Shown one piece after another: positions 73 to 16,454 of a DNA stretch of 16,454 nt (its first letter is position 1; every line of letters begins with the position of its first letter). The stretch covers positions 526,188 through 542,641 of the forward strand of contig CP070758.1 in assembly GCA_020348925.1 (NCBI GenBank), written 5' to 3'. Source of the stretch: Gemmatimonadota bacterium. Its GTDB lineage: Bacteria; JBHIER01; G020348925. Made by a program: the position numbers and the translations under genes. Below the pieces are notes generated by a model. It was not told the origin of the DNA. It was given only the letters and a program-made list of their open reading frames with translations, and did not search any database.

Positions 73-297
73 CTAAAAACCAATCGCTGATTTCATTCCA
101 ACTAACAGCACAACAGCCATGAGAGCGACTATGACGAACATGTAGGTTGCAAAGATGTAGGACTTTTGTTTTACTTTATGTAATACCTCGCCCACGGTAG
201 GAACGAATATCAGCCCGAGTCCGAAGACAAATGCCGCCCCCAATGCTATTGCCAGTGCCACGCTCCCGACCAATTTAATCACTGCAAATACTTCCAT
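73..297 (-). CDS. Small two-helix membrane protein under riboswitch control
   Basis: This is a 74-aa protein I do not recognise. It has two long hydrophobic segments, about residues 6-33 (rich in Ala, Gly, Val and Phe) and 48-69, joined by a short basic loop with Lys-rich sequence near residues 39-44 (HKVKQKS). This predicts a helical hairpin in the inner membrane. The start is set by an AGGAG Shine-Dalgarno about 8 nt upstream of the ATG at 297. A longer reading from 351 would begin inside a terminator hairpin and is rejected. The leader carries a GEMM-I riboswitch and an intrinsic terminator, so expression is probably controlled by a cyclic dinucleotide. In known genomes GEMM-I riboswitches often control motility, pili, cytochromes or surface genes, but nothing in this protein identifies a pathway. 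It appears to be the only gene of its transcript inside the window. Confidence 0.8.
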   Translation of the reverse strand: MEVFAVIKLVGSVALAIALGAAFVFGLGLIFVPTVGEVLHKVKQKSYIFATYMFVIVALMAVVLLVGMKSAIGF

Positions 298-333: not shown

Positions 334-363
334 AAAAAAAATCTGCCCCACATGTGGAGCAGA
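334..363 (-). terminator. Intrinsic terminator in riboswitch expression platform
   Basis: On the minus strand the 22 nt from 363 to 342 fold into a near-perfect hairpin (TCTGCTCCAC pairing with GTGGGGCAGA, one G-U pair) followed at once by eight T residues (341-334). It lies between the GEMM-type aptamer and the ribosome binding site of the 74-aa gene. That is where an expression platform for transcriptional control is expected. Whether ligand turns the gene on or off cannot be decided by eye. Confidence 0.85.
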
Positions 364-387
364 CTCTCTTTCAAAAGATTATGCTTA

Positions 388-476
388 TCACGGTTTCGGT
401 AACCCGGCTTGCTAACAAATGAGCCCCGTGGCTTCCCGTCCCACCTTCACAAGTGGTTTGGCTTTTCGGTCCGTCT
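388..476 (-). promoter_or_regulatory. GEMM-I (c-di-GMP-I class) riboswitch aptamer
   Basis: Read on the minus strand, the segment carries the GEMM-I landmarks in order: GCCAAACC; a six-pair stem (CCACTT with AGGTGG) capped by a GTGA GNRA tetraloop; GGGACGGGAAGCCACGGG; a second arm; and GCCGGGTTACCG. A short closing helix pairs ACGG at 474-471 with CCGT at 393-390. This matches the family by arrangement and conserved bases (Vc2 aptamer and GEMM consensus known from the literature). Compared with Vc2, the bases corresponding to the G21-C46 pair appear swapped to C-G, and the base corresponding to A47 appears to be G. The ligand is therefore presumably a cyclic dinucleotide, but c-di-GMP is not certain. 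The element precedes an intrinsic terminator and the 74-aa membrane protein gene. Confidence 0.88.
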
Positions 477-15075: not shown

Positions 15076-16454
15076 TTATTTCACAAGGACCATGCGTTTC
15101 GTAGCTCTGAATTCCCCCTGAAGGTCTCGTGATGTTCCGCCTGCCGAGAGCGTATAGAGGTACACGCCACTGGAGACTTTTCTTCCTTCCTCATCCTTCC
15201 CGTCCCAGGTTGCCCTATGGCGCCCCGGCGCTTTCCGCTCATTGACCAGGGTTCGCACTTCCTGCCCGACAATGTTGTAGATTTTCAGAGAGACCCACGG
15301 TGTGAGTTCAGTGGTCGGAACAGAGTAGATGATCGTAGTCGTGGGATTGAAGGGATTGGGATAGTTTTGTTCCAGAACCCACGTCTCGGGTTGGAGGTCT
15401 CCTTTGAGGTTGATGGGGTAGATATCAACCGGAATTTCACGACATCCTTCTCCGGCCAAGAGCGCTTCTGAAATTTCGATCATCGGTCTTTGAGTCGTGG
15501 ATTTCGAGTTCCGCATAGAGAAGGATGCGGTCAGGATTGAACCGGATCCGGCAGGAATAGAAGTGCCATCGGGATTGTAAATGAGGATGACCCACCGGCC
15601 GTCTGCCCATTCATGATCAAGCTTCATGTGAGAGGCGCGGCCCCGGAGTTGAGGCGCTTGTGGGTGGAGGGCGGTTGGATCGTAGCCGAGGATGAGCTGT
15701 ATTCCAGTCATATCATGTTCAGAGCGGATGGCGAGGGGGAGTTCGAGGCGTCCGTGTGTGAACTCCGCCTCCTCCCCAGGGCTCCAGATGCTGGCCGGAG
15801 ATATGGCTATCTTTGCCAAGCTTGAAGTGGGCGGGCAGGTGCCAAGGCCGAGAATGACGTTGATGATGCCCACGACATCGAGAATATCGACGGCATCGTC
15901 CTCGTTGCAGTCGGCGGCCCAGAATTGAAAGGTGGTGAATTCTATTCGTTCGAGGATGTAGTTGATCATCCAGACGGCATCCAGGACATCCACTTCGCCG
16001 TCCATGTTGACGTCCCCTTTGATCCCTGTGCCGAGGAACAGCGTACCGTCCTGCACCCTCAGTGGGATTGCGATGCCGACCGTATCACTCAGTACGACTC
16101 TGTCAAAATGAATGCGTGTGCTATCGCCCACCGTTACGCTTGGATTCACCTCAAACGTGATCTCGGCCACAGGTCCTGTTCCGGATGCGATCGCTTCGAG
16201 CTCTGAAGTGGCGAAGACGATGATGAGGCGTCCCGGATCCGGGATGTTCCAATCGAAGAGACCATCAATGCGCGGGGTCGGTTGGACATCCAGGACAGTT
16301 GCAAAGGTATCACTGTACGTCAAGTGCGACTGAAAGGCGGCGATGGGGTCGTCCCTTTCGGTCTGGTTGTCGATATTTAGAGTCATCGTCACCGTATCGC
16401 CAGGCAGTGACCAAGCGTCGGGGATGGCAACAATGACCTGAGCTTCTCTCACGA
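15076..16454 (-). CDS. Secreted cohesin-dockerin protein with C-terminal sorting tail (N-terminus outside window)
   Basis: At least 458 residues are visible; the true start lies beyond 16454, since the frame is open to the edge. Residues about 4-141 form a cohesin-like beta-sandwich (SLPGDTVTMTLNIDN, then FQSHLTYSDT, then PVAEITFEV and VQDGTLFLG). Residues 146-204 are a dockerin with two Ca loops (GDVNMDG, ADCNEDD). Residues about 213-320 resemble a second cohesin-type domain (GIQLILGYDPTAL, GSILTASFSM). The last 95 residues carry QNYPNPFNP (362-370), KIYNIVGQEVRTL, WDGKDEEGR, VSSGVYLYTL and a terminal KRMVLVK. This is a FlgD-like/T9SS type A-like sorting domain, so the protein is probably exported across the outer membrane and attached or released at the surface. 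Cohesins bind dockerins, so it could in principle hold the dockerin proteins encoded at 1285-8949; this is inferred. The stop codon is TAA at 15076-15078. Confidence 0.85.
   Translation of the reverse strand, partial: VREAQVIVAIPDAWSLPGDTVTMTLNIDNQTERDDPIAAFQSHLTYSDTFATVLDVQPTPRIDGLFDWNIPDPGRLIIVFATSELEAIASGTGPVAEITFEVNPSVTVGDSTRIHFDRVVLSDTVGIAIPLRVQDGTLFLGTGIKGDVNMDGEVDVLDAVWMINYILERIEFTTFQFWAADCNEDDAVDILDVVGIINVILGLGTCPPTSSLAKIAISPASIWSPGEEAEFTHGRLELPLAIRSEHDMTGIQLILGYDPTALHPQAPQLRGRASHMKLDHEWADGRWVILIYNPDGTSIPAGSGSILTASFSMRNSKSTTQRPMIEISEALLAGEGCREIPVDIYPINLKGDLQPETWVLEQNYPNPFNPTTTIIYSVPTTELTPWVSLKIYNIVGQEVRTLVNERKAPGRHRATWDGKDEEGRKVSSGVYLYTLSAGGTSRDLQGEFRATKRMVLVK

Follow-up and report, generated by a model that had tools for sequence, protein, structure and literature searches.

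In the Vc2 aptamer of Vibrio cholerae, whose positions we use throughout for numbering, the ligand is recognized by G20, A47, and C92 together with A48; A47, named among the key recognition bases, stacks with both guanines (PMC4744006; PMC3764141). Two expression-platform layouts have been described: in pilM, a cGAMP-responsive ON switch of the GEMM-I type, the aptamer and the terminator are mutually exclusive, whereas in Cd1 of Clostridioides difficile, an OFF switch in front of flagellar genes, both coexist and compete with an antiterminator, for which the strand that closes the aptamer is proposed to be used (PMC9262584). Here we describe a GEMM-I element from a Gemmatimonadota genome, found in a window (the whole stretch of DNA analyzed) of 16,454 nucleotides, which shares its fold with Vc2, its pocket letters with a curated variant family, and the separate position of its terminator with Cd1.

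The aptamer and its binding pocket

On the minus strand, a genuine GEMM-I riboswitch (394 to 471), a new member of a known variant family, separates a glycoside hydrolase/dockerin gene (end at 1285) from an open reading frame running from 297 to 73. A cmscan search matches it over the full model length to the c-di-GMP-I-GGC family of the GEMM-I clan (Rfam RF03167; 66.7 bits, E 3.7e-14, gathering score 59) and also to RF01051 (c-di-GMP-I) with 57.5 bits against a cut-off of 35, both models of the clan (CL00126) thus scoring above their curated cut-offs. An earlier note, made from the sequence alone, had assigned a GEMM-I riboswitch to 334 to 476 and proposed an Infernal search with the GEMM-I model as a check; that search gave these significant matches, and every landmark the note named is present on the minus strand, but the aptamer proper is confined to 394 to 471 and its Rfam subfamily is, more exactly, the GGC variant.

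The P2 helix is capped by a GUGA loop of the GNRA class, and in an alignment with 12 relatives this helix covaries together with pairs 21-46 and 22-45, 96.9% of the cells being paired. The covariation score of the P1b/P2 pairs is 0.96; shuffling gives 0.27, none of 500 shuffles reaching the observed value, and sliding the pairing along gives no more than 0.22. The riboswitch is therefore not a chance resemblance. The minimum-energy fold extends P1 by pairing ACGG (471 to 474) with CCGU (390 to 393), so that the extended P1 spans 390 to 474 on the minus strand.

The sequence and the alignment place a G at position 20 (462, minus strand), as in c-di-GMP sensors; what marks the GEMM-Ib cGAMP riboswitches is a selective binding of 3',3'-cGAMP. 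Position 92 (399, minus strand) is the conserved C, and A48 and A49 are retained. Position 47 (435, minus strand), however, is G and not the near-invariant A that all eight sibling elements of the same genome carry, and the canonical c-di-GMP-I arrangement, with A47 stacked between two guanines, is therefore absent. The RF03167 consensus also has G in this column. The element thus carries G20, G47, and C92, the combination of the c-di-GMP-I-GGC type, and we read the "GGC" of the family name as these three letters. This type was reportedly defined by Weinberg et al. in 2017.

Sequence, structure, and pocket are otherwise shared with RF03167, the difference being pair 21-46, which is C-G here and G-C in the model. 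With Vc2 and the canonical RF01051, the element has in common the fold, the GNRA loop, C44, G83, G20, C92, A48, and A49, and departs from them in the replacement of A47 by G. Its pairs C22-G45 and C21-G46 are of a type that two unrelated genomes (L057 and L060) combine with A47. The A47G change may weaken or alter ligand binding; we found no binding measurement for it in the open-access literature.

Elements with G47 are rare. Among 386 genomes sampled across the domain, 51 contain RF03167 matches above the cut-off, and the G47 pattern occurs in one, the source genome itself; a stricter pattern applied to 84,980 species genomes gave five matches, with two credible further G47 cases. Since these counts rest on exact-pattern matching, they are lower bounds. 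One of the two, in a Bacillales MAG (L051), scores 60.1 bits, over the cut-off; the other, in a Woeseiaceae MAG (L048), scores 38.4 bits, below the cut-off, with an E value of 8.9e-8 in a 301-base search. Both lie upstream of genes whose products begin with a hydrophobic or signal segment, the sub-cut-off GEMM-like element (L048:5214-5328) preceding an exported hydrolase-like protein. The remaining three pattern matches, in Methylococcaceae, reached no Rfam gathering score, and one of them (L047) lay within long coding frames; the three were set aside as chance. No G47 pattern was found in viral contigs.

Sibling elements and the expression platform

The source genome contains nine GEMM-I elements: the one in the window and eight others (G000:C1 at 4463382, 4456513, 5036690, 2273272, 504621, 1972330, 1065017, and 344728; L009 to L015 and L017). 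All eight siblings have G20 and A47 with pairs U22-A45 and G21-C46, and in all eight the aptamer itself provides the 5' arm of the terminator, a AGCCGGGCUGCC-type segment of its 3' strand. Aptamer and terminator are therefore mutually exclusive in the siblings, which is the published pilM ON layout. Three of them precede pilin-like genes (L009, L011, and L013) and four precede genes for exported proteins (L012, L014, L015, and L017), while one (L010) has no clear target. The eight canonical elements likely form a c-di-GMP-ON regulon. By a simple hydrophobicity count, most identifiable first open reading frames behind GEMM loci of other genomes also have a signal-like or pilin N terminus; one of them (L077) encodes a 57-residue pilin-like protein, a partial precedent for tiny membrane-inserted targets. 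We found 10 GGDEF matches in the genome, and all four that were read carry the ordinary GHxxGD motif, so c-di-GMP is very probably made in the source bacterium.

The layout of the window element is not that of its siblings or of pilM. An intrinsic terminator (335 to 370, minus strand), with a 16-bp stem followed by a T run, lies entirely downstream of the aptamer and separate from it. Its hairpin folds at -19.7 kcal/mol, compared with a shuffle mean of -6.7 kcal/mol and with 0 of 500 shuffles as stable, in agreement with the strong terminator that had been proposed from the sequence. The hairpin is not listed by an automated terminator scan, and its support comes from the fold and from direct reading of the sequence. 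Upstream of and overlapping it, we identify a candidate antiterminator hairpin (352 to 391, minus strand) of 3+4+5 pairs, in which AGCA would pair with UGCU and UCUUU with AGAGA, and an optional outer helix, GUG with CAC, would take the 3' strand of P1. This candidate folds at -9.0 kcal/mol with the P1 strand and at -6.4 kcal/mol without it (22 of 500 shuffles as stable), weak beside the -19.7 kcal/mol of the terminator; blocking the 5' strand of P1 leaves a difference of just 0.5 kcal/mol to the alternative fold. Of the two hallmarks of a Cd1-type OFF switch, the separate terminator is thus clear and the competing antiterminator weak, and by analogy we infer, with modest confidence, that the element is probably an OFF switch. 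This OFF-type layout and the A47G pocket change, both overlooked by the earlier note, are the unusual features of the locus.

The downstream gene and its 3' flank

The first gene downstream of the terminator is, as had been proposed, a 74-residue open reading frame (73 to 297, minus strand) preceded by a Shine-Dalgarno sequence, GGAG (306 to 309), at a distance of 8 bases from its ATG (297). The predicted product (P0001) is a two-helix membrane protein, with helices at residues 2-42 and 46-73 in a single-sequence model (mean pLDDT 77, pTM 0.36) and a turn marked by a basic stretch (HKVKQKS). Its frame has a codon score of -0.04; the two remaining frames of the same strand score -0.33 and -0.37.

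No recognizable homologue was found in the 386 genomes, viral contigs, plasmids, Pfam, PHROGs, or NCBIfam, which left none to count behind GEMM elements; this absence says little, because in the set searched nothing is related to the source genome more closely than at the level of domain. The suggestion that the protein represents an effector type worth naming is accordingly not supported. Matches to Pfam DUF1761 (E 0.096) and NCBIfam XopAV (E 0.59), both far under the curated cut-offs, and to PHROG 369 (E 0.081) were rejected as chance similarity of hydrophobic sequence. Nearly all matches in the 386 genomes at E 1e-3 to 1e-2 lie inside frames of 336 to 669 codons, and the one short-frame match (L085) sits among ordinary neighboring genes; these too were rejected. 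A Foldseek search with the model returned nothing beyond an ATP synthase chain (E 6.1), a meaningless match for a helical hairpin.

The AT-rich 3' flank (1 to 72) ends at an assembly gap of 100 Ns, which begins 72 bases past the stop codon, abuts the left edge of the window, and holds one collapsed copy of an insertion sequence. Beyond the gap is the start of a transposase, of which a complete copy elsewhere in the genome belongs to the IS110 family (PF02371, PF01548). Because this gap and IS110 copy interrupt the 3' neighborhood, the small protein cannot be concluded to be the "lone" or sole output of the riboswitch, as the earlier note had it. The next gene on the same strand past the gap encodes a 532-residue protein with a signal-like N terminus (start at L039:2691). 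In the IS110-family copies (L039:3067-3287, L097, L099, and L100), a long near-palindrome immediately precedes the ATG of the transposase.

Readings of the locus

Building on the aptamer, pocket letters, terminator, open reading frame, and two layouts obtained by computation, we infer a ligand, a direction of switching, and a role for the protein, and we give about even weight to the resulting reading: the segment from 480 to 298 on the minus strand is the leader of the 74-residue gene and a transcriptional OFF switch of the GGC-type GEMM-I class, most likely binding c-di-GMP. In this scheme, c-di-GMP would bind the pocket with G47 stacking in the place normally held by A47. Ligand binding would close P1 (ACGG with CCGU) and withhold the CCGU strand from the antiterminator hairpin, upon which the separate strong terminator would form and the membrane protein would be switched off. 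Rising c-di-GMP would then turn the pilin and exported-protein genes up and the 74-residue membrane protein down. The model match of 66.7 bits, the retention of G20, C92, A48, and A49, the compensating pairs 21-46 and 22-45, the GGDEF proteins of the genome, the two other G47 elements before genes of surface or exported type, the contrast in layout with the siblings, and the gain in stability that the P1 strand gives the competing hairpin favor this reading, and the sequence evidence suggests that the element probably responds to c-di-GMP.

The replaced pocket base could instead mean that the aptamer has been retuned to another cyclic dinucleotide, such as 3',3'-cGAMP, or to another nucleotide, with the single GGC element reading a separate signal. 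A change of ligand from c-di-GMP to c-AMP-GMP through a change in the pocket is known in the clan (PMC7266159), Rfam treats GGC as a separate family, and pocket, platform, and type of target all set the window element apart from the eight siblings. G20 is nevertheless kept, the four GGDEF proteins read out of 10 have GHxxGD and not the Hypr serine, and the two other G47 elements stand before ordinary exported-type genes, and we consider such retuning rather unlikely. It is more doubtful still that the GGC pocket reads something other than c-di-GMP and that the response is carried by a hitherto unknown two-helix membrane protein, whose level would be set by this one element, wired oppositely to the eight canonical switches. 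The rarity of G47 and a terminator far stronger than its antiterminator would also suit a decaying riboswitch, in which A47G impairs binding and the terminator constitutively attenuates expression; yet the element retains the other recognition bases and undamaged P1b/P2 helices, the score is over the gathering cut-off, the Bacillales and Woeseiaceae elements are independent G47 cases, and the GGC type is curated in Rfam, all of which make decay unlikely.

Two further alternatives concern the target. Whichever reading of the RNA is adopted, the 74-residue gene could be part of a longer unit cut by IS110 that includes genes past the gap, such as that for the 532-residue protein about 600 bases on. 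The short distance from the stop codon to the gap, the flanking transposase start, the shared strand, and the fact that exported proteins are the usual targets speak for such a unit, but about 350 non-coding bases separate the 532-residue gene from the end of the insertion sequence, so a separate promoter is likely for that gene, and we think the longer unit a possibility of limited weight. That the 74-residue frame is not a gene at all, leaving a leader with no target at the locus, appears very unlikely: it would agree with the absence of homologues in the sets searched and with a codon score that is low for this genome and about equaled by two reverse frames, but the frame outscores the other two of its strand, is preceded by a well-spaced Shine-Dalgarno sequence, encodes two well-defined hydrophobic helices joined by a basic loop, and has a GC content of 0.31 at codon position 2, a low value typical of membrane proteins.

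A single genome holds eight canonical switches of one layout and one pocket variant of another, an internal comparison that bears on what replacing A47 by G does to the choice of ligand and on whether one RNA fold can let a single messenger drive outputs in opposite directions. A small membrane protein here joins a list of targets made up mainly of pilins and exported proteins, its assignment being limited by the lack of a homologue in the sets searched and by the adjoining insertion sequence.

Elsewhere in the window, the minus strand between 5513 and 11002 encodes, one after another, a PBP_like_2 binding protein, an M6 protease with a dockerin, a phosphate-selective-type porin, and a regulator combining HTH_17 and PBP_like domains, which looks like a cluster for the uptake and sensing of an oxyanion (tungstate- or molybdate-like). 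A protein encoded at 15076 to 16452 (minus strand) combines cohesin, dockerin, and FlgD/type IX-like C-terminal sorting domains, and the window contains three further dockerin proteins.
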